The notes beneath the pieces are model-generated. The model was not told the origin of the DNA. It made no database searches and saw only the letters and a list, made by a program, of their open reading frames with translations. A stretch of 64,000 bases of DNA from Bacteroidales bacterium 6E (GTDB lineage Bacteria; Bacteroidota; Bacteroidia; Bacteroidales; Prolixibacteraceae), in contig DF970671.1 of NCBI GenBank assembly GCA_001270045.2, forward strand, positions 57,745 through 121,744, read 5' to 3'. Made by a program: the position numbers and the translations under genes. Shown here piece after piece: positions 302-23,199 of this stretch (position 1 is its first letter; each line of letters begins with the position of its first letter).

Positions 302-1984
302 ATGGGGTGGTTTAACAAATTGAAAGATGAAAATCAGGGTATCGGCCGCCCGTTGATACACGGATATGTCCGTTTCAGGTCTTCCATCTATGGGAGAGTG
401 GTTTTCATCATTGCCATATCATCTTTTTTCCTGTTTATCTCTTTCGGTATTATTTTCAGGTCGGTTAATGAAAGTTATATCAAGACGGTCATCAGTGAAA
501 ATGGAAACAATGTCGGATATCTGGTTGAAGGAGCCTTGTACCGTTCCATGCTTGAAAATGACCAGTCTTCCTTGCAATCGACATTGGACATGATCAATTC
601 CATGTCGGGGATTGATGATGTCAGCATGTATGATCAAAATAATGTGTTGGCTTACACTTCAATTGCCGATTTTGGCCGGAGTGAAGCGAATCCTGACTGT
701 CTCAGTTGTCATACCAATCTGGATCAGCTGTTTTCGCATACAGAAAAATCGTACCGTATCATTGACGATGACAGCCCCTGTGCGATGAATCCTTCTGAGG
801 CGGGTACCCGTCATTTATTGATTAAATCACCAATCCTTAATAATCCTTCCTGTTACACCAGTGCCTGTCATGCACATAGTGCCGATGAGGATGTTTTGGG
901 CTCCTTAATCATCAGGATGCCATTGGAGGGATTGGACAATGCCATGAAGCAGTCAAGCAATGAATTCTATCTTTTGGCTGCTTTGATGACCATCCTGCTT
1001 TCAGGGGCATTGCTGGCTTTTACAAACAAAAAAATCAAGAATCCACTGCAGGACCTGGTAAGAGCCAGTATTGCCGTGGCCAATGGAGACACAAGCAAAA
1101 GATTGCGTGTGAAACCTAATCAGCTGTCGGATATCCGCATGATGTCAATGGCATTTAATGAGATGCTCGATAACCTGCAGTCGGCCAATAATGAGCTGCA
1201 GAATTGGTCACAGCAGCTGGAGTATAAAGTCCAGAAGAAATCCGAAGAGTTAGGTCAGGCGCAAAACGAACTGATCAACATTGAGCGAATTGCATCTTTG
1301 GGTAAACTTTCACTTTCGGTTGCACATGAAATCAACAATCCCCTTTCCGGAATCCTGGTTTATGCCAAGTTAGTGTCAAAACAGTTGAATAATCAGGAAT
1401 TGGATCCTTCCAAAAAGGAGTCAATGCTTAAGCACTTGAAACTGATTGAAAATGAAACCAAGCGCTGCGGTGATATTGTCAAGGGCTTGCTTGATTTTTC
1501 GCGAAAAGACCAGGAGAACCATGAGCCTAAACACTTGCACGAAATACTTCGGGATACCTTCGAGCTGATGTCACATCCCATGAAAATCGCCAACATTCAT
1601 TTTTGGACTGACTTTAATGCCCGGCACGACCTGATACAATGCAGTGCCAACCAAATCAAACAGGCGTGTGTAGCTATGCTGGTCAATGCTTCTGAGGCCA
1701 TTACCGAAAATGGGGAGATAATAATCCGCACCGAAAATCCAGATGAAGAACATATTCGGATCGATATCACGGATAATGGAATTGGAATTGCCGAAGAGGA
1801 TATTCAACATGTATTTGAACCATTTTTTTCAACAAAGGATAAAGTTAGCGGAACAGGCCTCGGACTTTCCATTGTCCATGGAATTGTCCAGAGCCATAAA
1901 GGCAGAATCAGTGTGAAATCAATCCGGGGCAAGGAAACTACCTTATCGGTTTTATTACCTCTTATTAAAAACGTTAATTCATAA
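302..1984 (+). CDS. Membrane histidine kinase with c-type haem sensor domain
   Basis: 560 residues: TM1 about 33-52, periplasmic sensor about 53-220, TM2 about 221-241, HAMP about 242-295, a short coiled coil, HisKA with phospho-acceptor His342 in VAHEINNPLSG, and an HATPase domain with DNGIG and GTGLGLS boxes. The sensor holds two c-haem attachment motifs, CLSCH (133-137) and the wider CX4CH CYTSACH (184-191 region). This implies covalent haem on the outside of the inner membrane and sensing of redox state or a small gas; the signal is inference. A sigma-54 response regulator begins 4 bases after its stop, so the two are almost certainly one operon and a cognate pair. It phosphorylates that partner by family rule. 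Confidence in kinase high, in haem binding good, in ligand low. Confidence 0.93.
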   Translation: MGWFNKLKDENQGIGRPLIHGYVRFRSSIYGRVVFIIAISSFFLFISFGIIFRSVNESYIKTVISENGNNVGYLVEGALYRSMLENDQSSLQSTLDMINSMSGIDDVSMYDQNNVLAYTSIADFGRSEANPDCLSCHTNLDQLFSHTEKSYRIIDDDSPCAMNPSEAGTRHLLIKSPILNNPSCYTSACHAHSADEDVLGSLIIRMPLEGLDNAMKQSSNEFYLLAALMTILLSGALLAFTNKKIKNPLQDLVRASIAVANGDTSKRLRVKPNQLSDIRMMSMAFNEMLDNLQSANNELQNWSQQLEYKVQKKSEELGQAQNELINIERIASLGKLSLSVAHEINNPLSGILVYAKLVSKQLNNQELDPSKKESMLKHLKLIENETKRCGDIVKGLLDFSRKDQENHEPKHLHEILRDTFELMSHPMKIANIHFWTDFNARHDLIQCSANQIKQACVAMLVNASEAITENGEIIIRTENPDEEHIRIDITDNGIGIAEEDIQHVFEPFFSTKDKVSGTGLGLSIVHGIVQSHKGRISVKSIRGKETTLSVLLPLIKNVNS

Positions 1985-1988
1985 CCAT

Positions 1989-3329
1989 ATGGCAAAAAAA
2001 ATTTCCATACTTATTGTAGATGACGAACAGTCAGTAAGGGATTCTTTATATAATTGGTTCATTGAGGATGGATATGACGTTGAATGTTCCGAAAATGCGC
2101 TGAAAGCTTTGGGTCTCCTGGAATCAACACAGTTCGACATCATTCTTGCCGATATAAAGATGCCAGGTATGGATGGTCTTGAAATGTTAAAGCGAATTAA
2201 GGCATTGAAGAAAGATTCCATTATTATCATGATGACTGCCTTTGCAACTGTAGACACCGCGGTTCAGGCTCTTAAGGATGGGGCTTTCGATTATGTCACC
2301 AAGCCTTTCGATCCGGATGATTTATCGCACCTGATCCGTAATGCAGCCAAACAGGTTCTATTAACGGAAGAGAATGAGATTTTGCGGGAGAAGGTCATTT
2401 CCCTTGAGAACGTTGAAGATCTCATCGGGAAAAGTGAGGCGATGCAAAAAGTGCTGAAGGACATTGAAAGTGTATCCCAATCAAACGCATCAGTGATAAT
2501 TACAGGAGAGAGTGGAACTGGCAAAGAGTTGGTTGCCAGGGCGATCCATGCCAACTCTCCGAGAAAGTTCTTTCCAATGGTGAGCGTCCATTGTGGTGCC
2601 TTAAGTGAAAGCCTTTTGGAAAGTGAGCTGTTTGGACATGAAAAGGGGGCTTTTACAGGAGCTGTCTATAACCGTAAAGGGAGGTTTGAAATGGCGGATA
2701 ATGGAACCATTTTTTTGGATGAAATTGCCACCATTTCAACAAAAATGCAGGTTGAGCTTTTACGGGTATTGGAAACAAAAAGTTTTGTCAGGGTTGGGGG
2801 ACATAAGGAGATTTCATCTGACTTTCGGGTTATATGTGCAACAAACCGTGATCTCAAAACCATGGTAGATAACGGCTTGTTCAGGGAGGACCTCTATTAT
2901 CGCCTGAATGTGGTGAATATTTATGTGCCTCCTCTTAGGGAACGGATTGATGACATTCCTTTATTGGTGGAATATTTCATCAAGAAGTACTGCCTTTCCA
3001 TGAACCGACCCTTGATGACCATTGATGCCTCAGCCCTGAAAAAGCTGGAGGAATTTCCTTTTCCGGGAAATATCCGGGAGCTTGAAAACATGATTGAGCG
3101 TGCGATTGTCGTTGGAAATGGGAAAAGAATTACCATGAAGGATTTGCCGCTTGGGAAAGAAAAGAAGCTTCCGGCGTTTGAGAGTCTTGATGACCTGGAA
3201 AGAAACCATATACAGCAGATCCTTGACAAATATTCCTGGAATATCTCGGCCTCGGCCAAGGCATTGAAAGTCGATCGGGTCACACTTTACAACAAGATTC
3301 GTAAATATGATTTAAAGGCTCCCAAATAG
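1989..3329 (+). CDS. Sigma-54-dependent response regulator (NtrC type)
   Basis: 446 residues. Receiver 1-120 with D11/D12, phospho-acceptor D55 (ILADIKMP) and K105; AAA+ domain about 142-370 with Walker A GESGTGKE (173-180), the sigma-54-contact loop GAFTGA (220-225) and Walker B IFLDEIA; C-terminal Fis-type helix-turn-helix ending in VDRVTLYNKIRKY. It activates sigma-54 promoters when phosphorylated, presumably by the haem kinase directly upstream. All catalytic residues are present. Targets are not visible; the archaemetzincin gene follows 63 bases later but no clear -24/-12 element was found before it. Confidence 0.96.
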   Translation: MAKKISILIVDDEQSVRDSLYNWFIEDGYDVECSENALKALGLLESTQFDIILADIKMPGMDGLEMLKRIKALKKDSIIIMMTAFATVDTAVQALKDGAFDYVTKPFDPDDLSHLIRNAAKQVLLTEENEILREKVISLENVEDLIGKSEAMQKVLKDIESVSQSNASVIITGESGTGKELVARAIHANSPRKFFPMVSVHCGALSESLLESELFGHEKGAFTGAVYNRKGRFEMADNGTIFLDEIATISTKMQVELLRVLETKSFVRVGGHKEISSDFRVICATNRDLKTMVDNGLFREDLYYRLNVVNIYVPPLRERIDDIPLLVEYFIKKYCLSMNRPLMTIDASALKKLEEFPFPGNIRELENMIERAIVVGNGKRITMKDLPLGKEKKLPAFESLDDLERNHIQQILDKYSWNISASAKALKVDRVTLYNKIRKYDLKAPK

Positions 3330-5456: not shown

Positions 5457-6910
<1,454 letters not shown>

Positions 6911-7003: not shown

Positions 7004-7657
7004 TCAAATTTCTATAATGTTGTTTTTGATGGCAAACTTAACCATGTCGACAGTACTTTTAAGGTTAAGTTTCTGCATAATATGGTTTTTATGGGTTTCA
7101 ACAGTTCTTACGCTGATGTAGAGTTTGTCTGCTATTTCCTGGTTCGAAAGACTTTGGCCCCATAATTTAAGAATTTCTATTTGTCTGGCGCTAAGTTGTT
7201 TGATTTCATTGGCGGGCAATTGTTCCGGTGTGTCAAGTGATGTTATGTACCGGTTTAATACAATCTTGGTGATCGAATTCCCGAAGTATTCGTAACCATT
7301 CCGCAAGGTGAGAATTGCCTCTTTCAAGTCGTTAGTGTTTGAATCTTTGCCCAGAAATCCTCTGGCCCCTGATTTTACGGCTTTCATAATGATTTCATCA
7401 CCGTCGTTTTGTGATAGGATTAAGATAGACATTCGCGGAAAGGCAACCTTCAGCTGTGAAATTTGGATCAGGTTTTTGAGAGAGTCGTCCGGCAGTGAAT
7501 AAACCAGAATATGGGCTTTCCTTTTTTTTAGGCTTTGGGTTAGCTCTTCGATGTTCCGGCTCGACAAGGTAACCCTGAAATCAGGGATATCCGCAATTAG
7601 CTTTGTTAATGTCTCCAGCCCAAGTTGATAGTCATTATAAATGGCAATTTCAATCAT
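7004..7657 (-). CDS. LuxR/NarL-type regulator with degenerate receiver
   Basis: 217 residues: receiver-like domain 1-120 and a LuxR helix-turn-helix about 150-215 (LSARQIEILKLWGQSLSNQEIADKL). In the receiver the acidic pair is reduced to N8-D9 and the residue aligned with the phospho-acceptor Asp is Tyr53 (HILVYSLP where HILLLDxxMP is normal), with a one-residue deletion before the Pro; the conserved Lys (GFLGKDS) remains. So ordinary Asp phosphorylation seems impossible. Its start overlaps the stop of the giant GAF/ATP-grasp gene by 8 bases, hence translational coupling and a functional link. DNA targets unknown. Confidence 0.9.
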   Translation of the reverse strand: MIEIAIYNDYQLGLETLTKLIADIPDFRVTLSSRNIEELTQSLKKRKAHILVYSLPDDSLKNLIQISQLKVAFPRMSILILSQNDGDEIIMKAVKSGARGFLGKDSNTNDLKEAILTLRNGYEYFGNSITKIVLNRYITSLDTPEQLPANEIKQLSARQIEILKLWGQSLSNQEIADKLYISVRTVETHKNHIMQKLNLKSTVDMVKFAIKNNIIEI

Positions 7658-10600
7658 GTATCCCCTGTTTATTCAATAACCAATTTTGATCTGTAGCCTC
7701 TAATGGAGTGATGACTATTGCAGAAGTTTTATTCCGTCCGTCCATAAAAATATGGAGAGGTTTTCTTAATCGTACATGTCTGTAAAATTTGGTTTCCTGG
7801 ATTAGAGGTAGATTATTAAGCATATCCCAACGAATGAAATCAGTGGCAGAGGTATGTTGAACCGAGAAGTAACCAATGTTCATGGCGGTTACATTGTGAA
7901 AAAAATGGGATCCTAGGGATGTGTCCAATGGAAAGTTTCTCAGACTAATCTCGACAATTACCTTGGCATTCGAGATCTGTGACCAATTGACCGGGATTCC
8001 CACGAATCGGTCACGGCTACCCCATCGGCCCGGGCCGACGAGAATGTATTTCCTGTTATAACTGATCATCTGCTGGTTAAGGGCTTCAATTTCTTCGGCC
8101 ATTTCCATCGTCCGCAGTTTGTCAAATTTCTCAGGATCGATGTAAATGATATCATAAATGTCTGAGATTTGTCCATTGCCTACACATGAGGTTGTGAAAA
8201 GAAGCATTTTTGATTTATCCAGTTTGTCTATCCTGACAGGCTTATAAATGTGATCTGAGATCAGGGGTTTAATCTGAAGAAGATAGAAGGAGGGAAGTCC
8301 GTTTTTGGTTCTGTCGAGATCGACCGCATATTCTATTTCCACGGGTGAACCGAATGCCTCCTCAACCGTGACCAATAATTCCCTTATGGTTTCAGCCAGA
8401 GGCACGTGATCGTATTGCAGAATGTTTGCAAAGTTTACGACAAACGGTCCGTATCCTTGGTCTCCAGGTTCAAGTCTGTCGTTATCCTTATTGTAGACCG
8501 AAACACAGTGTTTAAGTGTACCATGTTCCACTGCATCATATATGTCTAGTAGTTTAAGCGCTGCCAACTCTCCATCCTGCAGAAAATCGATGTCCCTGTT
8601 ACGGCAATCGAGGGCATAAAATTGTGACTGGGTGCTGTTCAGAAGGTCTCTTACACTGTACATGTTCACCTTGGGATATTTGGGCGAGAACCGATAAGAT
8701 TTCCATCCGTCAACAACGTATGTGCCTAAACCGACGGCCGCGATGGCAAAACCTTCTTCCGGAAGCATATTGGCTACCGGATAATAATTATACGACTGGG
8801 CCACGCCACTGATGTGGGGGTAATAATAATCTCCATATTGGTTTCCGACTAACTCCTGGAGGACGATTGCCATCTTTTCTTCTTCAATTTTGTGATGGAT
8901 AATCGTGAAGTAATTTCTTGCCTTGGGAGAGAATGTGGAAGCAAACACCAGCTTAATGGCTTGCGTGAGATGCTCAAAGAGCAATTTCTTATTTGAACTG
9001 TTTGGTATGATGTATGTGTCAAATATTCCCGCAAATGGTTGGGTTATTGAATCTTCCGCGATACTTGATGACCTTACGGCAACAGGTCGGTTAATTTGTT
9101 TGATGAGAATCTTTAGCTTCTGAAGCAATTGCATTGAAAGATTACCTTTGGCAAAATGCTCCCTGAGTTGTTGGTAAGGGATTGTCGGATCAATTATTTT
9201 TTCAAATAGCTTGTTTTTGCTGATAAAATGTTGAAACTCATCCGTTCCGATCACTACAGTGATCGGGGTGGTGATGTTTATCTTATCACTTAAGCCAGGG
9301 AAGTCCAGATTGTATATCAGTGTGTTGATAAATGCCAGACCACGTCCCTTTCCTCCGAGGGATCCGGGCGCAAAGGCGACAATGTTCTTTTCATCGATAA
9401 TGGATGTCTCATCAAAGGTCAGGATTTTCCCTTTTTTCTTTTCCTTCCTGTACTTTTTGATGATTTCAAGTAATTGCTGCCTTGATTCCTCAAGGGTCCT
9501 GAACATGTTTAACGAAAGGGGATTCAGGGTGCGGGCCAGTTGGATTTCACCACGCTGCATCAGCCAGAGCGAGAATTGGTTTTCGGAAGCGTGGATCGAA
9601 AGCGACTCATCCGGAATCTGTTGTAACAAGTTCTCAAATTCACGGAGGGTTTTTGCCACCCCAATTTTATTGCCTGCCTTATCCCTGAAAACAAAATGTC
9701 CGAAACCTAGATAACTGTTGAGGAAGTGTTTCAGGTCTTTTATAAGCCTGTCCGAATTTTTGTTCAGGAATGTTACCTCCAGTTCCTTTGCAAGGGCAGA
9801 GTTGCTGTCTTCAGAGGATTGCAGGATAATGGGAAGTTTTGAAATATGTGACTTTACATACCTGATGAGTTTGGCTCCCGCCTCCTTGTCCATACGCCCG
9901 GCCTTTTCAAATTCGACGTCCGAAATGATGCAAAGCATAAAATCCCTGTACTTATTGAAAATGGCGATCGCTTCTTCATAATTGCGCGCATGCAGGATTT
10001 TTGGCCTTGACCTCATACGGCTGATTTTATCCAGTTCGTTCTTCTCAACCTCCGGCAGAAGTTGTTTGACGTGGTTGAAAACGATATCGAAGAGAATCTG
10101 GATATATTTCGAATAATAAATAGGTGAATCCTCGATGAGGAGGATCACCCTGACCAGGCCGACCCTTGTGTCGTTGTCGACGTTCACTTTGTCCTCGGTG
10201 AGCTTTACAATCGAGAAAAGAATCAGGGAATCTCCACTCCAAACAAATAGCTTGTCGATTGACCTGAGAGAGGGCATGACTTCCTCATAGTATTTTACAT
10301 CACTTTTGCGGTTGACTAACAGGTATATAGGAAGCGATTCGAATCTTTCGCGAATTTTTTCGCTCAACTGCACCGGTGACTCCCGATCGATGCCAGCCAT
10401 TAAGATAACCAAATCAAACCTGGTTGTTTCCAGAAGTTCAAGGGCTTCTTCCGCAGTGGAGACACCTGTAATTCGTGGAACCGAAAAAAGACTGTACTGA
10501 TAAATTTCGCCCATGAACTTTGCAAAGAATGAATCTTCGCTCTCGAGATTGAAAGCATCGTACAAGGTAGACACGAAGAGAATGTGCTTGATCTTGTAAC

Positions 10601-12365
10601 GCATCATCTCAAGGTAAATGTACTTGTCGATCGCCTGCTGGTTAAAATAGAGCTGCAAAGGCTTTTTGTTTCGTATCAATGATGTGCGGAAAGCATCGGA
10701 AGGATGAACAGCTTGTTCAGGTACACCTTTTAAATGAATGATGCCCCTGCCTTTTAAATTGTTGAGGTATCCGCTGATCAATCTGCAAATATTGATCAGG
10801 AGGTTTCTTTCTTCATGCAGGAATGGACCTTCATCTTCGGCAGGGAATTTACGGAGATAGAAGATTTCGACCGATCCTTTATTGTTGTCTATGGTAACGA
10901 AATACTCTGTTTGATACCATGGCGTTTCCTGAAATTCACCACTGACGTAGGTTCGCCCCTCGAATTGGATTCTGGCTGCCGTATATTTTGGATACTGCCA
11001 TGATTTTGGCAGGATTTCACAAATTTCACGAAGCGTTTCAGGGATTGTTTTTCCTTCATCAATGATTCTGGATGTTTCATTGATTGCCTTAAGTTCCTTG
11101 ATTCTCTCGGTATTTTCGTAATTCAGTTTTTTGAATACATCCTTTATGGCAGATCCGGCAATCAGTGTGGCAATGTTCTCGAGAAGCTCCAATTCCTCTT
11201 TCAGAAATGGACCTTCAAATTCATCAGGGAAATTTTCAAGGTAATAAATTTCAATTACGCCTTTTTTACGGTCTGGCAGTTCGAATTTTTGTTTGAGATT
11301 CCATTCTGTTTCTCGGAATCCAGGCGAAACAAATAATTTCCGATGATAAAATATTCGCACAACGGTGGCGTGTGGGTATTGCATGGCCTCCGGTAGCATA
11401 TTGCAGATTCGCTGCAGGGCTTCCTCAATGTTTCGTGAACTCTCAAGTATTTTGGTAGTTTGGTTAATTCCACGAAGCTCTTTCAGACGTTCAGTATTTT
11501 GAATCAGAAGCTTTTTCAATGCCTTTTCTGAAACGCTCCCTGCAATCAATGTAGCAAGATTGGCAATCAAGGTCTGCTCCCTCGGCAGGAATGGCTGTTG
11601 ATAGGTATTTTCATTTAATTCCCTGTAGAATAATTCGATGGATCCATGTCCGTTGTCAGGTGTTTCAAGAGGATGGATAAATACCCAGGGGGTTTCGGTA
11701 AATCCGGGGCTGGTATATATCTTTTCTCCAAACCTAATCCTCGCTTCCGCAAGATTGGGATATCGGAGAATCTCGGGAAGGAATTTACACATCTCTGTCA
11801 TCAGTTCATCGATGCTCTTGCTTCTACCCAGGATTTCGGCAGCCCTGTCGATCCCATCAAACTCATTTTTGAAGCCATTATCAGAATCTGTGAGAATCTT
11901 TAGCTGTTCTTTGGCTAAAATACCTTTGATAAATGGTAAAATGTAGTCGAGTGATTTTATGGCTACGTGAACTTGTTCTTTGGTAACAGGTATGTTATTG
12001 GAATTGCGGAGAACCCATTCTATCGATCCAGCCGAGTGATCGGGAAGATAAAAATTCCTGCTAATCAATTCTCCATTGTCAGAATACCCTGAATCGGCAA
12101 TAATCAATCCGCCAAAGTTCAACCTTGAATGAAGAATAAGATCTTGTCTGCAATTGGCGACAATCCAATTGTTTATTGAAACCAGTTTGTCTGTAATGGG
12201 AATCTCGAGGTCTGAAATTTGGACCAGGTCAATGATTGAAGATAAAGTAAATGAAGGTCCCGACTGTCTCGGTTCACTGTTGTTGAGAATGTTATTGTTT
12301 GCTTCTAATGTCATACCTGGTAATAAAATGGATGATGAAACAGCCGGTTCTGGATCGTTATTCAT
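7650..12365 (-). CDS. Giant GAF-receiver-ATP-grasp (PEP-synthase-like) signalling protein
   Basis: 1571 residues, no signal peptide or TM segments. Order: a divergent GAF-like unit about 60-155; three clearly homologous GAF-like units about 175-287, 305-415 and 432-537, each with the pattern 'LPE/K..xYP...ARI.F...Y/FVSPGFxET.W...G.IE.FY...F..EGPFL..E..L...I'; receiver-like domain 1 about 592-720 with Met at the phospho-acceptor position (DLVILMAG); receiver 2 about 740-885 with acidic ED, Asp816 in LCIISDVEF and Lys869, apparently intact; a pyruvate-phosphate-dikinase/PEP-synthase N-terminal ATP-grasp domain about 995-1370 (GSLGGKGRGLAF, PVAVRSSSIAED, EIEYAVDL...LLQIKPL); and a C-terminal domain about 1385-1560 I cannot name. 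The phospho-His swivel domain and the PEP-binding TIM barrel of true PEP synthase are missing, so it is not a metabolic enzyme. Role inferred: multi-input sensor whose ATP-grasp unit phosphorylates an unknown partner. Couples to the LuxR-type gene downstream. Confidence 0.88.
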   Translation of the reverse strand: MNNDPEPAVSSSILLPGMTLEANNNILNNSEPRQSGPSFTLSSIIDLVQISDLEIPITDKLVSINNWIVANCRQDLILHSRLNFGGLIIADSGYSDNGELISRNFYLPDHSAGSIEWVLRNSNNIPVTKEQVHVAIKSLDYILPFIKGILAKEQLKILTDSDNGFKNEFDGIDRAAEILGRSKSIDELMTEMCKFLPEILRYPNLAEARIRFGEKIYTSPGFTETPWVFIHPLETPDNGHGSIELFYRELNENTYQQPFLPREQTLIANLATLIAGSVSEKALKKLLIQNTERLKELRGINQTTKILESSRNIEEALQRICNMLPEAMQYPHATVVRIFYHRKLFVSPGFRETEWNLKQKFELPDRKKGVIEIYYLENFPDEFEGPFLKEELELLENIATLIAGSAIKDVFKKLNYENTERIKELKAINETSRIIDEGKTIPETLREICEILPKSWQYPKYTAARIQFEGRTYVSGEFQETPWYQTEYFVTIDNNKGSVEIFYLRKFPAEDEGPFLHEERNLLINICRLISGYLNNLKGRGIIHLKGVPEQAVHPSDAFRTSLIRNKKPLQLYFNQQAIDKYIYLEMMRYKIKHILFVSTLYDAFNLESEDSFFAKFMGEIYQYSLFSVPRITGVSTAEEALELLETTRFDLVILMAGIDRESPVQLSEKIRERFESLPIYLLVNRKSDVKYYEEVMPSLRSIDKLFVWSGDSLILFSIVKLTEDKVNVDNDTRVGLVRVILLIEDSPIYYSKYIQILFDIVFNHVKQLLPEVEKNELDKISRMRSRPKILHARNYEEAIAIFNKYRDFMLCIISDVEFEKAGRMDKEAGAKLIRYVKSHISKLPIILQSSEDSNSALAKELEVTFLNKNSDRLIKDLKHFLNSYLGFGHFVFRDKAGNKIGVAKTLREFENLLQQIPDESLSIHASENQFSLWLMQRGEIQLARTLNPLSLNMFRTLEESRQQLLEIIKKYRKEKKKGKILTFDETSIIDEKNIVAFAPGSLGGKGRGLAFINTLIYNLDFPGLSDKINITTPITVVIGTDEFQHFISKNKLFEKIIDPTIPYQQLREHFAKGNLSMQLLQKLKILIKQINRPVAVRSSSIAEDSITQPFAGIFDTYIIPNSSNKKLLFEHLTQAIKLVFASTFSPKARNYFTIIHHKIEEEKMAIVLQELVGNQYGDYYYPHISGVAQSYNYYPVANMLPEEGFAIAAVGLGTYVVDGWKSYRFSPKYPKVNMYSVRDLLNSTQSQFYALDCRNRDIDFLQDGELAALKLLDIYDAVEHGTLKHCVSVYNKDNDRLEPGDQGYGPFVVNFANILQYDHVPLAETIRELLVTVEEAFGSPVEIEYAVDLDRTKNGLPSFYLLQIKPLISDHIYKPVRIDKLDKSKMLLFTTSCVGNGQISDIYDIIYIDPEKFDKLRTMEMAEEIEALNQQMISYNRKYILVGPGRWGSRDRFVGIPVNWSQISNAKVIVEISLRNFPLDTSLGSHFFHNVTAMNIGYFSVQHTSATDFIRWDMLNNLPLIQETKFYRHVRLRKPLHIFMDGRNKTSAIVITPLEATDQNWLLNKQGIHD

Positions 12366-15929: not shown

Positions 15930-15963
15930 AAGTGGAACTATTCATTTCCTAAAATTATTGGCT

Positions 15964-16881
15964 ATGATTTTATTGGCAGTAACTGAGCAAAACACAGGTG
16001 AGAAGCAACAACCAACCAAGGCTGGCCGTCTCAGTACAGGGACGAAAGTTTTGTTTGATCAGGTTTCGTTCGAAACAAGTAAACTGATCACTAAATCATA
16101 CAGCTCCTCCTTTTCGTCTGCCACTTCCTTGCTCGAACCTGAGATCAGGGAAGCCATATATAGCATTTATGGTTTTGTCAGGTATGCCGATGAAATAGTG
16201 GACACTTTTCATGGCTATGACAAGGAATACCTTCTCTCCAAGTTTGAAAATGATTTCTATGAGGGCTTGAGAGGCGGCATCAGCATGAATCCAATATTAC
16301 ATTCATTTCAGCAAACCGTAATGAAATATCACATTTCAGATGAACACATCCGGGCATTTCTCAGGAGTATGAGATCCGACCTTTCCAAGAATGTCTATAT
16401 GGATGAAAATGAAATGAGTGATTACATATATGGTTCTGCAGATGTTGTCGGGCTGATGTGCCTCAAGGTTTTTGTGAACGGAGATGAAGAACTGTTCAAC
16501 CATTTGAAAATGCCAGCCATGAAACTGGGATCTGCCTTTCAAAAGGTAAATTTTTTACGCGATCTCAAGGATGATACAGAGGGGCTAAACCGCAAATATT
16601 TTCCACAACTAAGCATTACAAATTTTGACAATAAAGCCAAGGATGAGATCATTCAGAGCATTGATGAAGATTTTGAGGCAGCCCTCATTGGAATAAGACA
16701 ACTTCCGGGAAGATCTAAACTGGCTGTTTATGTGGCATACAAGTATTATTGCCTTTTGCTGAAAAAGTTGAAGAGAACTCCTGCCTCAACCATCCTTAAC
16801 CGAAGAGTGAGGGTTTCAGGACACTTAAAGGCTTTATTGTTGTTGAAGTCTCTGGCTGATTATCGATTCGGATTCATTTGA
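15964..16881 (+). CDS. crtB: Phytoene synthase
   Basis: 305 residues from the ATG at 15964; a TTG two codons upstream is less likely. It joins two geranylgeranyl-diphosphate molecules to 15-cis-phytoene, the first committed carotenoid step. Both Asp-rich diphosphate-binding motifs are present: YADEIVDTFH and FLRDLKDDTEGLNRKYFP (shown here to 18 residues). First gene of a same-strand operon that continues to the CrtI-type desaturase. No GGPP synthase is in the window. Confidence 0.96.
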   Translation: MILLAVTEQNTGEKQQPTKAGRLSTGTKVLFDQVSFETSKLITKSYSSSFSSATSLLEPEIREAIYSIYGFVRYADEIVDTFHGYDKEYLLSKFENDFYEGLRGGISMNPILHSFQQTVMKYHISDEHIRAFLRSMRSDLSKNVYMDENEMSDYIYGSADVVGLMCLKVFVNGDEELFNHLKMPAMKLGSAFQKVNFLRDLKDDTEGLNRKYFPQLSITNFDNKAKDEIIQSIDEDFEAALIGIRQLPGRSKLAVYVAYKYYCLLLKKLKRTPASTILNRRVRVSGHLKALLLLKSLADYRFGFI

Positions 16882-16927
16882 GGTTTTCGTTCTATCAGAA
16901 AATTTTATCTACGTAATAATCGAAATT

Positions 16928-17620
16928 ATGTCACTATACGCTTCCTTACTCCTGTTTTCGTTTATTGTTCCTATTTCTCTAAGTTTTGACAAACGATTAC
17001 AGTTTTACAGAAAATGGCCGACACTTCTTCCGGCAATTTCAATGATAGCCATCTTATATATCATTGCCGATGTCGTATTGACCAATATGGGAGTTTGGGG
17101 ATTTAATGAACGTTATCATTCCGGGGTAACATTTTTAAAACTGCCCATTGAAGAGTGGTTGTTCTTTTTCGTAATTCCTTACGCAAGTATTTTTCTTCAT
17201 GAAAGCCTGGTACTTTATTTTCCAAAATTGAAAATTGATGAGGCTGTTGCACGGCGAACCACTTTATTATTGATTTTCTTTTTTACGGCACTTTTCGTAA
17301 TGAATATCGGGAGAACCTATACAGCATATATTTCCATGAAAATGATTCTGGTTCTCCTTTGGACATTTTTTGACAAGAAACGGGTAATTGCTTCCTTTTA
17401 TGTAACTTTCATGGTAATTCTGATTCCATTTCTGATTGTCAACTCGATTCTTACAGGTAGTTTTATTGACGGAGAAGTTGTTTGGTATAATAATGCCGAA
17501 AACCTTGGTTTAAGGCTGTTTACCATTCCGGTTGAAGATATCGCCTATGCTTTTAGCATGATTTTATTTTCATTGCTGCTCCGAAATTTATTTATTCATT
17601 CCCGGCTTAATCTGAAATGA
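16928..17620 (+). CDS. Lycopene cyclase, fused CrtYc-CrtYd type
   Basis: 230 residues, six to seven predicted TM helices. Two homologous halves can be seen, each ending in the acidic cyclase motif: LPIEEWLFFF in the first and IPVEDIAYAF in the second. This is the membrane-bound cyclase family (heterodimeric CrtYc/CrtYd in actinobacteria, fused in Bacteroidota) that forms beta-ionone rings on lycopene. Stop and next start overlap as ATGA, so expression is coupled to the CruF-like gene. Confidence 0.88.
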   Translation: MSLYASLLLFSFIVPISLSFDKRLQFYRKWPTLLPAISMIAILYIIADVVLTNMGVWGFNERYHSGVTFLKLPIEEWLFFFVIPYASIFLHESLVLYFPKLKIDEAVARRTTLLLIFFFTALFVMNIGRTYTAYISMKMILVLLWTFFDKKRVIASFYVTFMVILIPFLIVNSILTGSFIDGEVVWYNNAENLGLRLFTIPVEDIAYAFSMILFSLLLRNLFIHSRLNLK

Positions 17621-18297
17621 TGATCAATAGCTTTGAGCAAATTAAAAATTGGTCAGATGGTCGACAGAATCTGGTAATCCTGTTGTTTGTCATCTTTTAT
17701 TCGGTAGGGGTAGCCGGATTTATTTATCCCCCAACTTCAGCGCTTTTTGCTGAATTGACACCTCTTATCCTGATCATGAGTTTTATCGCTGTCATTATAT
17801 ATCACGAAGGTAGAATTACCCTAAAGCATCTGGTCATTTTGTTGGGGATCTTTCTGTCTTCATTTGTGGCTGAGGCTATCGGGGTTAATACTGGAATCAT
17901 ATTTGGATCATACGAATATGGAGATAGTCTGGGATTGAAAATCTTTGATACCCCACTTCTTATAGGAGCAAATTGGGTTTTTTTGGTGTATTCCTCTTCA
18001 TCGATTATTCATCGGACAAAATTGAGTGGAGTAATCCTGATATTATCAGCTTCGTTGGTCATGGTCCTTTATGACCTGATACTTGAACAGGTTGCCGGAG
18101 ATATGGGAATGTGGACCTGGACCGAGGGATACATTCCACTTAAGAATTACTTCACATGGTTTGTGTTGGCATTTATATTTCACTGGGTTTTAAAGTATTT
18201 TGTTGTGCCGACTTCAAATAAAGTTGCCCCTGCAATCTTTACAATACAGTTTGTGTTCTTTTTGATGATTTTTCTGTTGAAAGGAGTTGTTTCATGA
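17617..18297 (+). CDS. Carotenoid biosynthesis protein, CruF-like hydratase
   Basis: 226 residues, polytopic. Belongs by pattern (EAIGVNTGIIFGSYEYG, DLILEQVAGDMGMWTW) to the family of CruF carotenoid 1,2-hydratases and the archaeal bisanhydrobacterioruberin hydratase. CruF adds water to the psi-end of a monocyclic carotene, giving the 1'-hydroxyl that a glycosyltransferase can use; that fits the acyl- and glycosyltransferase genes that follow. Linked by 4-base ATGA overlaps on both sides. Confidence 0.85.
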   Translation: MMINSFEQIKNWSDGRQNLVILLFVIFYSVGVAGFIYPPTSALFAELTPLILIMSFIAVIIYHEGRITLKHLVILLGIFLSSFVAEAIGVNTGIIFGSYEYGDSLGLKIFDTPLLIGANWVFLVYSSSSIIHRTKLSGVILILSASLVMVLYDLILEQVAGDMGMWTWTEGYIPLKNYFTWFVLAFIFHWVLKYFVVPTSNKVAPAIFTIQFVFFLMIFLLKGVVS

Positions 18298-18917
18298 TCA
18301 TGGAAGCACGACACCACTGGCTTGTTTACCCTTTTTTCAAATGGTATGCGGTATGGAAGGTCAAGAGAAATTTCAAGCCTGTATCCATCGTGGGCAATGT
18401 AGCTGATGCTGGAATGCCGGTTCTTGTTATTTCGAACCATGTCAGTTGGTGGGATGGCTTTTGGTTACAATATCTGAACCAGGCAATATTTCATCGTAGG
18501 TTACATTTCATGATGCTTGAGGAGCAATTGCGGAAGTTCTGGTTTTTTAATTTATCTGGTGGATATTCGGTGCGGAAGTCCAGTAGAAGTCTCATCGACA
18601 GCTTGGATTATACCGTGAAGCTCTTGGGGAATCGACAAAATCTCGTTTTTATTTTTCCGCAAGGTGAGATCGTATCAATGTATAAAAGTCATGTCGACTT
18701 TGAGAAGGGGATTAGTTATATATTGAAGAAACTTGAAAATTCTGTACAAATCATATTCGTCGCCAACCTGGCAGAATATTTTTCGAACGAGGTTCCCTCA
18801 TTAAATATTTATGTGGAAGAAGTCTGGTTTGACCAGCCTGATAAATTGCAGATTGAGGTCAGATACAATAAATTTTATCAGGAATGCATTGAAAAACAAA
18901 CTCAGATCAAGTCATGA
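18294..18917 (+). CDS. PlsC-type acyltransferase in carotenoid operon
   Basis: 207 residues. The catalytic HX4D motif is NHVSWWDGFW and the acceptor-binding motif is FIFPQGEIVS, both hallmarks of 1-acylglycerol-3-phosphate acyltransferases. Inside this operon the likelier acceptor is a carotenoid glycoside, as for CruD of green sulfur bacteria or CrtO of staphylococci; that is an inference from context, not from residues. Overlaps both neighbours by 4 bases. Confidence 0.82.
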   Translation: MIMEARHHWLVYPFFKWYAVWKVKRNFKPVSIVGNVADAGMPVLVISNHVSWWDGFWLQYLNQAIFHRRLHFMMLEEQLRKFWFFNLSGGYSVRKSSRSLIDSLDYTVKLLGNRQNLVFIFPQGEIVSMYKSHVDFEKGISYILKKLENSVQIIFVANLAEYFSNEVPSLNIYVEEVWFDQPDKLQIEVRYNKFYQECIEKQTQIKS

Positions 18918-20005
18918 TATATATAGTCATCGGTATATTCATTTTTACGTGTGTGCAATTAATGATTGCCTTTATTAATTATGTCTATCCTGAAACGCTT
19001 GTTCCATCAGACCTGAAAACAGATGAATTGGTTTCGGTGTTGATTCCTGCCAGAAACGAAGAGCATAATATTGGAAACATATTGCATGATTTGACTGGTC
19101 ATTCCTACAGGAATCTGGAGATTATTGTTTTTGATGATGAATCATCTGACCGGACAGCTGAAGTCATTAAGGAATTTGCAGCCAGGGATTTACGAATCAG
19201 GCTGGTCAGATCTAATGGTTTGCCTGCTGGGTGGTTGGGAAAGAATTATGCCTGTCATACATTGTCAGGTTATGCAAAAGGATCATATTACCTGTTCCTG
19301 GATGCAGATGTCAGGATTCATGGGAACTTAATAGATGATAGTCTTGGATTTATGAAGCGACATAATTTGGGATTGTTGTCAGTTTTCCCTTCCCAGATCA
19401 TGCAAAGTACAGGGGAAAAGGCCACCGTGCCTGTCATGAATCTTGTTTTGCTTTCACTTTTGCCACTTCGGTTAGTCCGAAGATCCACACGTTCATCTTT
19501 TGCAGCCGCTAACGGCCAGTATATGTTGTTCGAGGCCTCTTGTTACCAAAAGATGCAACCCCATAAAAAGATGAAACTACAAAGGGTTGAGGATATTGAA
19601 ATTTCGAGGTGGTATAAACGTAATGGAATAGGAGTAGCTTGCTTAACCGGAGTTTCAGAAGTCAGATGCCGGATGTATCAGGGTTATCGGGAAGCAGTGA
19701 ATGGTTTTTCCAAGAATGTCATCCAGTTTTTCGGGGGCTCAGGCTTTTTGGCAGTGTTATATGGTTTGGTATCCATCTTTGGGATTATCCCCATAATGTT
19801 TACAATGTCAATAAGGTATGTTCTTTATTATATTTTTCTGCATACCCTGAGAAGAATATTAATTTCTCTTACAAGTAAGCAATCAATAGTTGACAACCTG
19901 ATTTATGCTGTGCCTCAGCAATTGTCTCTTCTAATAATTATTGTAAGGGCCATCTTTGGTGAAATGAAAGGAGGTATCGTATGGAAAGAAAGATTAGTCT
20001 CCTGA
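18914..20005 (+). CDS. Family 2 glycosyltransferase, likely carotenoid-modifying
   Basis: 363 residues. N-terminal TM helix 1-24, then a GT-A domain with SVLIPARNEEHNIG, the donor-site DDESSDRTAE and the metal-binding LDADVRI; C-terminal membrane helices about 275-345. This membrane topology and context resemble CruC and CrtQ, which put a sugar on hydroxylated carotenoids. Product with the neighbours: a glycosyl ester carotenoid. The next gene starts 25 bases before its stop. Confidence 0.85.
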   Translation: MIYIVIGIFIFTCVQLMIAFINYVYPETLVPSDLKTDELVSVLIPARNEEHNIGNILHDLTGHSYRNLEIIVFDDESSDRTAEVIKEFAARDLRIRLVRSNGLPAGWLGKNYACHTLSGYAKGSYYLFLDADVRIHGNLIDDSLGFMKRHNLGLLSVFPSQIMQSTGEKATVPVMNLVLLSLLPLRLVRRSTRSSFAAANGQYMLFEASCYQKMQPHKKMKLQRVEDIEISRWYKRNGIGVACLTGVSEVRCRMYQGYREAVNGFSKNVIQFFGGSGFLAVLYGLVSIFGIIPIMFTMSIRYVLYYIFLHTLRRILISLTSKQSIVDNLIYAVPQQLSLLIIIVRAIFGEMKGGIVWKERLVS

Positions 20006-20700
20006 TATTTTGGGTAATAATATTCATGTCAGTAGGTCGGGCCGCTGAAAAAGACCAGATCTACAAAGCCTATATTTCCGGGAACATGGGCCTTTGGAAA
20101 GAAACCATAGATAAGATGGAACAAAAAAAATCAAACGTGAATGCATCCATATTGGAATTGGTCAATTACCAATATGGATACATTGGATGGGCCATGGGAG
20201 TCGAACGTCATAAGGAGGCCAGATACTATCTTGATTTGGCTGAAAAAAATATTGAAAAATTGTCCAGTCGAGGATATTCCCCCTCTTCGATATATGCATA
20301 CAGATCGGCATTTTATGGCTTTCGAATAGGACTGAATCGCTTACAGGCACCTTTATTGGGGCCCAAGAGTGTTTCACAGGCTAAAAGTGCCATTGAAACA
20401 GATCCTGAGAATCCTCTGGGCTATATTCAGTTAGGTAATGCCGAATATTACATGCCAGCCGTTTTTGGCGGATCGAAGAGCAAGGCACTGGAGTATTTTT
20501 TGAAAGCGAAATCATTAATGGAGAAGCAACCATCAGGATTAAAGAATGATTGGAACTACCTGAGTCTTTTAACGCTTATCGCCCAGGTTCACATTGATTT
20601 GTCAGAGAACGTAAAAGCAAGAAATTTGTATGAAGATATTTTGAGAATTGAACCCGATTTTCTTTGGGTGAAGAATGAATTATATCAAAAAGTAAAATAA
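19981..20700 (+). CDS. Exported TPR-like protein in carotenoid operon
   Basis: 239 residues. Start supported by a strong GGAGG seven bases upstream, inside the 3' end of the glycosyltransferase gene. Signal peptide (MERKISLLIFWVIIFMSVGRAA), then helical tetratricopeptide-like repeats, for example AKSAIETDPENPLGYIQLGNAEYYMP and the segment ending in the C-terminal ARNLYEDILRIEPDFLWVK. No catalytic motif. Likely a periplasmic or inner-membrane adaptor; why it sits between glycosyltransferase and desaturase is unknown. Confidence 0.8.
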   Translation: MERKISLLIFWVIIFMSVGRAAEKDQIYKAYISGNMGLWKETIDKMEQKKSNVNASILELVNYQYGYIGWAMGVERHKEARYYLDLAEKNIEKLSSRGYSPSSIYAYRSAFYGFRIGLNRLQAPLLGPKSVSQAKSAIETDPENPLGYIQLGNAEYYMPAVFGGSKSKALEYFLKAKSLMEKQPSGLKNDWNYLSLLTLIAQVHIDLSENVKARNLYEDILRIEPDFLWVKNELYQKVK

Positions 20701-20713
20701 AAATGGCAATTAT

Positions 20714-22195
20714 ATGAGCAAAAGGGTATTAGTCGTAGGTGCCGGTCTTGGAGGAATAGCTACCGCCCTCAGATTGGCAAAACAGGGATATGAGGTTGAA
20801 ATCCTTGAAAAAAATCAACAGGCGGGTGGTCGGTTGAACCAGATCAAAAAAGATGGATTTACGTTTGATACTGGCCCCAGTTTTTTTAGTATGTCATATG
20901 AGTTTGAGGAGTTTGCCAACGAATGTGGTATTGATCTGCCATTTAGGTATGTTGAGTTGGATCCACTTTATTCAGTTCATATCAAGGGGAATCCTCAAAT
21001 TTTTCACTTGTACAAAGATCTTGACAGGTTGGCCGAACAATTTAATGATTATGAACCTGGATTCAGGTTGAAAATGGAAAAGTACCTCAAGAAATCAGGT
21101 GCACTTTTTGATGATACTATTGATATTGTTATAAAGCGAAATTTCAATTCTCTGCCAGCTTATCTGGTTGCCCTGGCCACTGTAAATCCAATTCATCTGC
21201 CCATACTTTTCAGGAGTTTCTATGACCAGGTGAAGAAGCATTTTACATCAAAAGAGGCCAGGATGATTATTTCACTGGTGGCTTTTTTCCTTGGTCGTAC
21301 ACCATTCGATACCAATGCGGTTTATACCCTTTTGTCATATACTGAGTTCAGGCATAATGGCTATTTTAACGTTGAGGGAGGAATGTATAAAATCGTTGAA
21401 GGGATTGTTAATGAGTTGAATAAAGCTAAAGTAAAAATTCATTACAATACTGAAATTGTCGGATACAAGGAGGATAGAGGTAAACTGGGGTATTTTATTG
21501 ATCAAACCGGAAAGCAATGGGCCGCGGATGCTTTTTTGGTGAACAGTGATGCAGCTAATTTCAGGCATTCAGTGTTTAATCGAAAGGGTTATGAGAAAGT
21601 TAAGATGGATAAGATGAGCTGGACAATGGGTTACCTGACCATATATCTCGGTATCAATATAAAACTTCCGGAAATTAACCATCATAACTACTATTTGGGA
21701 GGAGATTTTGAAAGCTATGCCCATAACATCCTTCACAAGAAAGAAGTACTGGATAATCCCTACTATTATGTGAATGTTTTGTCAAGGAAAAATCCGGAAT
21801 GCGCCCCTGAAGGTTGTGAGAGCCTGTTTTTCGTTTGTCCGGTTCCCAATCTTCTGGCAAAACCTGACTGGAGTGACAAGGATCAAATCGTCGAAAAAGT
21901 TATACAGGATTTTTCTGGCCGGATTGGAGTCAACATTTCTGATAAGATAGTCTCAAAGACTGTATATACGCCCATTGATTGGCAGGATCAATTCAACTTG
22001 TATATGGGGAGTGGTCTTGGACTCTCGCATAGTCTGGGCCAGATTGGCGGATTCAGGCCTCCAAATCATGATGAGGATTTCGCAAATGTCTTCTATGCCG
22101 GTGCTTCTACGGTTCCAGGTGCTGGTTTGCCGATGGCTATCATCAGCTCAAAACTGGCTACTCAAAGAATAAAGGAGTTTTCTGAAAAAAAATAG
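20714..22195 (+). CDS. crtI: Phytoene desaturase-family FAD enzyme
   Basis: 493 residues, CrtI length. N-terminal FAD fold VLVVGAGLGGIATALRLAKQG with GGR (AGGRLNQI) and TGPSFF; C-terminal conserved GxxxxPGAGLPMAI (YAGASTVPGAGLPMAI). Converts phytoene to lycopene, or acts as a later desaturase such as CrtD at C3',4'; being the only family member in the operon I favour the main desaturase, but a second copy elsewhere would change that. Last gene of the operon, 13 bases after the TPR gene. Confidence 0.92.
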   Translation: MSKRVLVVGAGLGGIATALRLAKQGYEVEILEKNQQAGGRLNQIKKDGFTFDTGPSFFSMSYEFEEFANECGIDLPFRYVELDPLYSVHIKGNPQIFHLYKDLDRLAEQFNDYEPGFRLKMEKYLKKSGALFDDTIDIVIKRNFNSLPAYLVALATVNPIHLPILFRSFYDQVKKHFTSKEARMIISLVAFFLGRTPFDTNAVYTLLSYTEFRHNGYFNVEGGMYKIVEGIVNELNKAKVKIHYNTEIVGYKEDRGKLGYFIDQTGKQWAADAFLVNSDAANFRHSVFNRKGYEKVKMDKMSWTMGYLTIYLGINIKLPEINHHNYYLGGDFESYAHNILHKKEVLDNPYYYVNVLSRKNPECAPEGCESLFFVCPVPNLLAKPDWSDKDQIVEKVIQDFSGRIGVNISDKIVSKTVYTPIDWQDQFNLYMGSGLGLSHSLGQIGGFRPPNHDEDFANVFYAGASTVPGAGLPMAIISSKLATQRIKEFSEKK

Positions 22196-22227
22196 TCTGT
22201 CAGTAGACTTTACCAATAAATGTTTTC

Positions 22228-22263
22228 TTTGTTTATCTTATAATTGCATAAGATTAAACAAAA
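22228..22263. promoter_or_regulatory. Imperfect palindrome upstream of CarH-like gene
   Basis: TTTGTTTATCTTAT and ATAAGATTAAACAAA face each other across 6 bases, pairing over 14 positions with one bulged T. It ends in the same ATTAAACAAAA 11-mer found before crtB. It lies 57-92 bases before the regulator's start and so could mediate autoregulation. Confidence 0.5.
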
Positions 22264-22320
22264 GATGATCTTGTGCGTTATTAAGTACATTATTACTGAT
22301 GTAGCTTCAATTATTTTGTG

Positions 22321-23199
22321 ATGACAAACAGGTATTCCATTAAGGACTTAGAAATATTGTCAGGTGTGAAAGCCCATACTATACGTATCTGGGAAAAGCG
22401 CTATAATCTTCTGTCCCCGGAAAGGACCGATACCAACATTCGTTATTATAATGACAATGACCTGCGCAAGATCATTAATGTGTCCTTTTTGGTCAGGCAT
22501 CAATTTAAGATATCGCGGATATCGACATGGGATTCAGCACGTATCCAGACGGAAGTCCTCAATATATCAAATAATTCAGGGGAAAAGGATGAACTAACCG
22601 AACAGCTGCTGTCTTGTTTAATATCCTTTGAAAACCATAAGTTTCTGAAGCTTGTCAATGATATTATACATGACCTTGGAATTGAAGAGGCATATACAAA
22701 GGTCTTTTTTGGTTTTCTTGAAAAAGTTGGACTTTATTGGCAGGCAGGAGTGCTTTACCCTGCACAGGAACACTTTGTATCCAATGTCTTACGGCAAAAG
22801 CTGCTTGCAGAAATCGAATTTGCGGAGGCCGAAAGCAAGAATCAACCCAATATGCTGTTTTTTCTTCACGAAAACGAGATGCATGAATTGGGATTGCTTT
22901 TTTACTCCTGGATTGCACGAAAATCAGGCTTCAACGTAATTTATCTTGGTACACAGGTTCCGTTTGATGACCTCCGTAAGGTGGCAGGCGCCACACGATT
23001 CAGTGCAGTGATGACTGCTTTTACAAATCCCATGGAAGAAGGATTTATACAGGAATATCTTCAAAAATTATTGCATCTGTTTCCAACCCAGAAAATATAT
23101 ATATCTGGATATCAGGTAAAGGATATTATGGATGAGCTTCCTGAAAGAGTTGAACCAATCAGAAATTATCTTGCGCTGAAGCAAAAGCTGAAAGAATGA
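22321..23199 (+). CDS. MerR/B12-binding transcriptional regulator, CarH-like
   Basis: 292 residues from ATG (a GTG one codon earlier is possible). MerR DNA-binding domain 1-70 (YSIKDLEILSGVKAHTIRIW, WEKRYNLLSPERT), helical-bundle cap with the full W-X9-EH cobalamin signature (W140, E150, H151) and a B12-binding Rossmann domain with the lower-ligand motif EMHELG (His188) followed by YLGTQVPFDDL. These are all features of CarH-type photoreceptors, which use adenosylcobalamin to sense light and repress carotenoid genes in the dark. Position right behind the crt operon and shared upstream motif support the role; light response itself is inferred. Confidence 0.9.
   Translation: MTNRYSIKDLEILSGVKAHTIRIWEKRYNLLSPERTDTNIRYYNDNDLRKIINVSFLVRHQFKISRISTWDSARIQTEVLNISNNSGEKDELTEQLLSCLISFENHKFLKLVNDIIHDLGIEEAYTKVFFGFLEKVGLYWQAGVLYPAQEHFVSNVLRQKLLAEIEFAEAESKNQPNMLFFLHENEMHELGLLFYSWIARKSGFNVIYLGTQVPFDDLRKVAGATRFSAVMTAFTNPMEEGFIQEYLQKLLHLFPTQKIYISGYQVKDIMDELPERVEPIRNYLALKQKLKE

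Follow-up and report, generated by a model that had tools for sequence, protein, structure and literature searches.

Introduction

Several described systems share parts with the locus reported here. In the survey in PMC4395418, receivers without the phosphorylatable aspartate carry glutamate (26%), asparagine (16%) or serine (15%) at that site. Pseudo-receivers are controlled by contact in PleD and in BldM-WhiI, and the control of PleD is described (PMC12632262). Rifampin phosphotransferase is a dikinase with another acceptor that uses His825, its catalytic histidine, together with Lys22 and Arg117 (PMC4844700). The locus considered here lies in a 64,000-nucleotide stretch of Bacteroidales bacterium 6E (contig DF970671.1, positions 57,745 to 121,744), hereafter the window. 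It comprises the genes for a large GAF/receiver/ATP-grasp protein (P0001) and a LuxR protein (P0002), followed by a palindrome and gdhA. We consider it fairly probable that the pair is a transcription switch linked to nitrogen and 2-oxoglutarate, in which the aspartate-less LuxR protein regulates gdhA and is controlled by its GAF/receiver/dikinase-like partner.

The two genes overlap by 8 bases (7650-7657), as the first-pass annotation of the window had reported. The open reading frame (ORF) at 5457 to 6809 was named gdhA from its protein sequence. The mapped features are the following; PEP is phosphoenolpyruvate and residue numbers are those of the encoded protein.

7650 to 12365, minus strand: GAF/receiver/ATP-grasp protein P0001, 1571 amino acids (aa); ORF, PPDK_N match, conserved family
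11871 to 12245, minus strand: GAF-like unit 1, degenerate, residues 41-165; repeat alignment z 1.6-7.7 against the other units
11490 to 11870, minus strand: GAF-like unit 2, residues 166-292; repeat alignment z 34-37 against units 3 and 4
11130 to 11489, minus strand: GAF-like unit 3, residues 293-412; repeat alignment
10752 to 11129, minus strand: GAF-like unit 4, residues 413-538; predicted fold resembling DosP 255-383
10221 to 10598, minus strand: dead receiver 1 (about residues 590-715), with Met656 in place of the Asp; Pfam Response_reg at 631-695
9696 to 10160, minus strand: receiver 2, intact, about residues 736-890; fold match to the PorX receiver, conserved catalytic residues
9918 to 9920, minus strand: codon of Asp816, predicted phospho-acceptor site of receiver 2
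8256 to 9368, minus strand: PEP-synthase-type ATP-grasp, about residues 1000-1370, with K1006, R1098, E1343, E1345 and Q1364
7698 to 8210, minus strand: domain at the C-terminus (residues 1386-1556), probably a divergent phosphohistidine swivel domain; model aligned to 2ols and 1dik, sequence does not confirm
7905 to 7907, minus strand: codon of His1487 in the GSHFFHN motif, candidate phospho-carrier
7004 to 7657, minus strand: LuxR/NarL-type protein P0002, 217 aa, aspartate-less receiver
7499 to 7501, minus strand: codon of Tyr53 of the LuxR protein
7496 to 7498, minus strand: codon of Ser54 of the LuxR protein, usual phospho-Asp position
6894 to 6910, strand-neutral: TTACGTGTTTTACGTAA, a palindrome in the luxR-gdhA interval and probable operator; exact site, conserved before gdhA
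5457 to 6809, minus strand: gdhA, glutamate dehydrogenase, 450 aa; linked to the pair in relatives

Conservation of the gene pair and its linkage to gdhA

The best 80 of 120 confirmed stretches from a scan of genome contigs form the locus set. In 74 of these 80 records the label is Bacteroidota or a subgroup, and many are Prolixibacteraceae. Without the 6 loci that have less than 300 bases beyond the large gene, 74 remain, and in 54 of these a LuxR gene follows immediately in the same orientation. The two genes are not rarely adjacent; rare adjacency was what the first-pass annotation had said would tell against its proposal. When the 21 loci with less than 3 kb beyond the large gene are dropped, 37 of the remaining 59 have gdhA behind it in the same orientation. 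The long forms (1350 aa or more) with 3 kb beyond them are followed by LuxR in 36 of 38 cases and by gdhA in 33 of 38. Of the 54 adjacent pairs, 39 are separated by -8 to +7 bases, a spacing that points to coupled synthesis of both proteins.

A family member is present in 57 of 61 relatives, and the ten best LuxR matches across these genomes are all genes adjoining the large gene. The form with GAF units occurs in 18 of the 61, and a nineteenth (G048) is cut by the end of its contig; a form of about 1000 aa without GAF units is commoner. Both a family member and gdhA are present in 54 relatives, and in 16 of these the two are no more than about 2.5 kb apart. The orders and strands differ, which favours a functional link over inherited order alone. 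In a wider sample of the phylum, 33 of 198 genomes match at E 1e-40 or better, some of them only to distant branches.

The genome of the window also contains a GAF-less paralogue (997 aa; L050:3110-9181, contig C25) that follows korA and korB. By sequence, these genes presumably encode 2-oxoglutarate:ferredoxin oxidoreductase. The GAF-less form is found behind korAB in L134, L142 and L144 as well, and in L042, L043 and L046 korAB are followed first by the GAF form, then by the GAF-less form and then by gdhA. In L131 and L138, the GAF-less type stands behind genes that we take to be gcvT, serC, serA and a DUF1015-like gene.

Further arrangements are seen outside the main group. In two Salinivirgaceae loci (L102:17558-18208 and L109:8370-9020), the LuxR partner lies about 4 kb downstream of the large gene. 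Five records labelled Opitutales or Spirochaetales/Spirochaetaceae (L071, L075, L085, L089 and L108) hold the large gene at 55-62% identity, and L085, L089 and L108 also carry LuxR; these may be mis-binned contigs or cases of gene transfer. More distant Bacteroidota (L301-L306, for example L306:1-7381) hold other branches of the family, with a protein of about 580 aa with the ATP-grasp and C-terminal domain alone, next to a longer form. The longer forms in L293, L296 and L300 end in a nucleotidyltransferase domain (NTP_transf_2); that in L295 (778 aa) shows none. In L306, a long form, a short form and a receiver form stand in a row.

The palindrome before gdhA

The 17-base palindrome TTACGTGTTTTACGTAA at 6894-6910 is the window's own copy of the consensus TTACGTRWWWYACGTAA. 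Among 42 sequences before gdhA, there are 0 mismatches to the consensus in 13, 1 in 7, 2 in 4, 3 in 8 and 4-6 in 10. Some of those sequences had supplied the consensus, so the count is partly circular. In 200 dinucleotide shuffles, 0 or 1 mismatch never occurs and 2 mismatches occur at 0.03 per set. Two loci in which gdhA lies directly behind the large gene with no LuxR (L097 and L126) have 6 and 5 mismatches.

The site co-occurs with the pair among the relatives. The set of regions upstream of gdhA holds 40 regions from 39 of 56 gdhA-bearing genomes, and the gltB set covers 40 of 48. The ten genomes with the pair have 0, 0, 1, 1, 1, 1, 1, 1, 2 and 3 mismatches before gdhA (two or fewer in 9 of 10), and the 30 control regions, from 29 genomes, have 2, 3 and then 4-6 (two or fewer in 1 of 30; Fisher p 3.6e-7, relatedness uncorrected). 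The control class includes genomes with GAF forms but without a directly downstream LuxR gene (G043, G049, G050, G056, G058 and G060). Four pair-less genomes of the same genus have 5-6 mismatches. In G040 and G054, the site is kept before gdhA though gdhA and the pair are on different contigs.

When the spacer is left free, the genome of the window has two exact sites, one before gdhA and the other before gltB (glutamate synthase). General control of gltB was rejected, since its site occurs in 1 of 9 pair genomes. Autoregulation of the pair through the palindrome was also rejected: the 69 regions before the large gene show no enrichment, and 0 of 69 have two or fewer mismatches.

Genomes that carry the pair or a GAF form contain further exact spacer-free sites: ahead of an NfnB/GltD-like operon in G040, ahead of an aspartokinase-like gene in G024 (where the contig stops before any LuxR gene could show), near hisG in G008 and before the pair operon in G054; one more in G040 has no evident link. 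These neighbouring genes are named from their sequences. At L161, L159, L168 and L152, exact palindromes stand before an aspartokinase-like gene, near hisG, before an NfnB/GltD-like operon and before gltB. These suggest a possible wider amino-acid regulon in some species.

The LuxR partner and its receiver

P0002 matches the Pfam families GerE (E 4.8e-18) and Response_reg (E 4.7e-7; 30.4 bits, cut-off 30.2). The phmmer alignment with VraR, which is ungapped, sets Ser54 against the Asp and Tyr53 against the Met preceding it. The receiver belongs to its family with a residue other than Asp at the Asp site, and P0002 lacks the phospho-acceptor of a two-component response regulator. The alignment of LuxR partners covers 57 sequences: the window's own, 54 from genes directly adjacent to the large gene and 2 from genes about 4 kb downstream of it. 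Column 54 contains N in 42, T in 5, S in 3, G in 2, V in 2, H in 2 and D in 1, and thus no Asp in 56. Column 53 is Tyr only in the window and in L114; the remaining 55 carry Leu, Ile, Val, Met, Phe or Lys.

As judged from these alignments, the receivers of the LuxR partners are aspartate-less, mostly through a change from Asp to Asn, and the Tyr has no special role. The first-pass annotation had placed Tyr at the phosphorylated-Asp site. The site is held by Ser54, and the Tyr is neither there nor conserved, the latter being an outcome that the annotation had itself named as contrary to its proposal. It had also named an intact Asp elsewhere; one is present in receiver 2 of the large protein (D816), and the LuxR receivers remain without Asp at the position in 56 of 57. 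A link to anti-phage defence was rejected: P0001 has no match in PADLOC, and P0002 matches only the DNA-binding part of CARF models.

GAF-like units and receivers of the large protein

GAF-like units 2, 3 and 4 of P0001 are clear mutual repeats (z 34-45 in the repeat alignment), and unit 1 is degenerate (z 1.6-7.7 against units 2-4), so that three of the four units described at first pass are clear. The Pfam GAF model has no match in P0001 up to E 1. The structure model of residues 416-985 has a mean pLDDT (predicted local distance difference test) of 79.4 and a pTM (predicted template modelling score) of 0.75. Within it, unit 4 matches DosP 255-383, which we take to be the GAF domain of DosP, with Z 14.3 over 121 residues and a root-mean-square deviation (rmsd) of 2.8. 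The GAF fold is thus indicated by structure for unit 4 and by repeat similarity for units 2 and 3.

Besides PPDK_N, Pfam finds weak receiver matches and a DUF5752 stretch in P0001, and no HisKA or HATPase_c up to E 1. The conservation set of 111 members contains 87 GAF forms and 24 forms without GAF units; L055 was omitted from alignments A2 and A3. Receiver 1 is dead, with M656 standing where the Asp would be, and 109 of 111 members share this Met. Receiver 2 retains a complete predicted catalytic set (E745, D746, D816, S/T850 and K869), with D816 in 111 of 111 members and K869 in all 110 that cover the position, and its fold matches the PorX receiver (Z 13.8). The description of one dead and one intact receiver is borne out.

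The ATP-grasp and the C-terminal domain

The ATP-grasp domain matches PPDK_N (PF01326) at residues 1002-1368 with E 1e-38, and its profile matches PEP synthase with E 7e-14, in agreement with its first assignment. K1006, R1098, E1104, E1343, E1345, Q1364, His1487 and Asp816 are invariant in the members that cover them, and E1171 and Q1170 of the ATP-grasp vary. P0001 has the catalytic Lys, Arg, acidic pair and Gln of a dikinase ATP-grasp, with roles assigned as in pyruvate phosphate dikinase (PPDK). A PEP/pyruvate-binding barrel had been described as absent, and no such family is found in P0001 among Pfam matches up to E 1.

The C-terminal domain is likely, by its model, to be a phosphohistidine domain. 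The model of residues 985-1571, built from 60 sequences, has a mean pLDDT of 84.8 and a pTM of 0.80. Model residues 2-570 align with residues 4-467 of the PEP synthase chain 2ols (Z 25.3, 365 aligned, rmsd 4.8) and with residues 3-511 of the PPDK chain 1dik (Z 18.4, 350 aligned, rmsd 5.8). Chain ends 467 and 511 are presumably the ends of the phosphohistidine domains. These alignments to chains of the Protein Data Bank (PDB) give the first and last aligned residue and not a residue-by-residue map. The ATP-binding chains 5hv6_A and 9goj stop at model residues 385 and 389, with 283 and 286 residues aligned. For several PPDK chains in other arrangements, the match is confined to the ATP-grasp part (223-232 residues, ending at 384-413). 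For rifampin phosphotransferase 5hv3, whose catalytic His is 825, the match runs to chain residue 835, opposite model residue 517; in the numbering of the model, His1487 is residue 503. The modelled elements are, in order, strand, strand, helix, strand, short helix, strand, a helix from Ser1486-His1487, strand and further strands. This order fits the phosphohistidine domain, in which the catalytic His is likewise at a helix start. His1487 is present in 107 of 107 members covering it and in 12 aligned more distant relatives, and P0001 ends 84 residues past it.

Sequence profiles do not confirm this homology, and PF00391 is not found in the C-terminal domain of P0001 by Pfam and profile scans. 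When the C-terminal domain alone is aligned with the PEP synthase swivel domain, scores are at the level of shuffled columns, even with more distant relatives added. A forced global profile alignment places the PEP synthase catalytic His on a gap beside GSHFFHN and not on His1487. A profile search of the PDB with the family alignment returns only part of the ATP-grasp, with C-terminal matches at E 0.15 and 0.52 that look like chance, and a PDB sequence search with P0001 returns nothing useful. The PPDK profile is too distant for aligning even the ATP-grasp. The absence of a phospho-His domain, reported at first pass, is doubtful: the model fits such a domain, and the sequence profiles give no confirmation.

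Proposed mechanism and alternatives

Sequence shows directly that the pair is conserved and linked to gdhA, that the palindrome is present and co-occurs with the pair, and that Asp816, His1487 and the ATP-grasp residues are conserved. From these, we infer that the LuxR protein would bind the palindrome before gdhA and set its transcription. As its receiver is without the usual Asp phosphorylation, its activity would be set by the large protein through contact of the two proteins. Most likely, by analogy, it is the DNA-binding output for gdhA and is contact-controlled in the manner of the pseudo-receivers of PleD or BldM-WhiI. The GAF-like units of the large protein may read small molecules, the putative ligand probably reflecting nitrogen or carbon status. 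The GAF domain of NifA binds 2-oxoglutarate. Receiver 2 could serve through Asp816 as an internal phospho-switch, and in the chemistry we propose the ATP-grasp and the probable swivelling His domain would stand in for a histidine kinase.

Beside the circularity of the 42-sequence count, several observations weigh against this scheme. The short GAF forms are less linked, with LuxR in 9 of 21 and gdhA in 4 of 21. The gltB site is limited to the one pair genome in nine given above. G029, which has the pair, has 3 mismatches before gdhA; the number is 5 in G049, where the adjacent LuxR gene is divergent, and 2 in G060, which has no adjacent LuxR gene. The exact spacer-free pattern occurs at 5 places in 4 pair-less genomes, one of which (G058) has a GAF form without LuxR; none of the 5 adjoins gdhA or gltB in the stretches examined. 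Over the genome of the window, the pattern is no commoner than a reversed control: exact sites number 2 against 1, and sites with one mismatch 7 against 26. The window itself has two hits with two or fewer mismatches, which is within chance.

A bolder form of the favoured switch treats the large protein as a PPDK-type histidine kinase for a receiver. Phosphate would pass within one chain from the ATP-grasp to His1487 and on to Asp816, with release of AMP and with the receiver in place of the PEP/pyruvate barrel, and the phosphorylated receiver would control the aspartate-less LuxR protein that sets glutamate dehydrogenase expression. All eight residues listed above, from K1006 to His1487 and Asp816, are invariant where covered, the model aligns into the His domains of PEP synthase and PPDK, and rifampin phosphotransferase shows that the architecture can serve a different acceptor (PMC4844700). 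The His-domain identity is, however, not significant by sequence, and the relatives of about 580 aa without receivers keep the His motif, so that the His can act without a receiver. We regard this relay as a possible but unlikely extension. It is a little less probable still that the large protein is an enzyme or modifier acting directly on glutamate metabolism or glutamate dehydrogenase, with LuxR merely adjusting expression. Members without GAF units and without LuxR are also found beside gdhA or korAB and the ATP-grasp residues are retained, but the receivers and GAF units are signalling parts and the short intergenic gaps suggest coupled synthesis with LuxR.

The ATP-grasp and C-terminal domain might also perform no chemistry and gauge energy by binding ATP or ADP in a signalling scaffold. 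Receiver 1 and the LuxR receiver are indeed inactive versions of signalling domains within the pair, but K1006, R1098, E1343, E1345 and Q1364 never vary where covered, though E1171 and Q1170 do, and we hold this to be improbable. The first-pass annotation proposed that the ATP-grasp modifies a target other than Asp, for which the Tyr of the LuxR receiver was the candidate. Tyr53 is present in the window and in L114, but it is one residue before the Asp site in a column otherwise filled by other residues. Modification of this Tyr is without support; it was rejected as the modified residue on the VraR alignment and the column counts, and we give it next to no weight. The broader part of that proposal, that the pair signals without the normal Asp of LuxR, stands on the adjacency (54 of 74) and the missing Asp (56 of 57).

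Other genes in the window

At 302-3329, the window encodes a histidine kinase with CxxCH and Cx4CH motifs in its sensor part, possibly a haem-binding redox sensor, and then a sigma54-type response regulator. At 15958-23199 lies what we take to be a carotenoid cluster (phytoene synthase, cyclase-like and desaturase-like genes), with the gene of a MerR/B12-type regulator behind it. An Rfam scan of the window gave no match.

Comparison with known systems

Among the papers listed in literature searches, none covers a receiver-linked PPDK-type protein or this pair, in keeping with the first-pass statement that it could name no described system with this set. The parts are known; the combination and the proposed target were not found described. 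Literature searches aimed at the control of glutamate dehydrogenase in Bacteroides and its relatives gave no study among the papers listed. The pair supplies a candidate regulator together with a DNA site and a target gene for it, and it bears on how 'dead' LuxR receivers are switched. By joining a dikinase core to receivers, the family makes a phosphate source for receivers other than a histidine kinase testable. If the relay is true, it would be a further route of receiver phosphorylation, with an ATP-grasp and a swivelling His domain replacing the histidine kinase.

P0001 shares its set of ATP-grasp residues with PEP synthase, PPDK and rifampin phosphotransferase, and its modelled C-terminal domain appears to have a fitting element order and an invariant His. 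Unlike these dikinases, it shows no PEP/pyruvate barrel in the Pfam scan and has no drug-binding domain, carries GAF units and receivers at its N-terminus and lacks a PF00391 match. PleD chains are the top Foldseek matches of the receiver model, and like PleD, P0001 has tandem active and inactive receivers preceding an enzyme domain; in P0001, however, the inactive receiver precedes the active one, and an ATP-grasp takes the place of the diguanylate cyclase. The LuxR partner lacks the phospho-Asp, as do the aspartate-less receivers and pseudo-receivers covered in PMC4395418 and PMC12632262, but it lies with a dedicated ATP-grasp partner and not with a histidine kinase. With its receiver and GerE DNA-binding domain, it resembles the NarL/FixJ-type regulators. 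It differs from the two-component members of that group in that it has no Asp and its partner has no HisKA or HATPase match.

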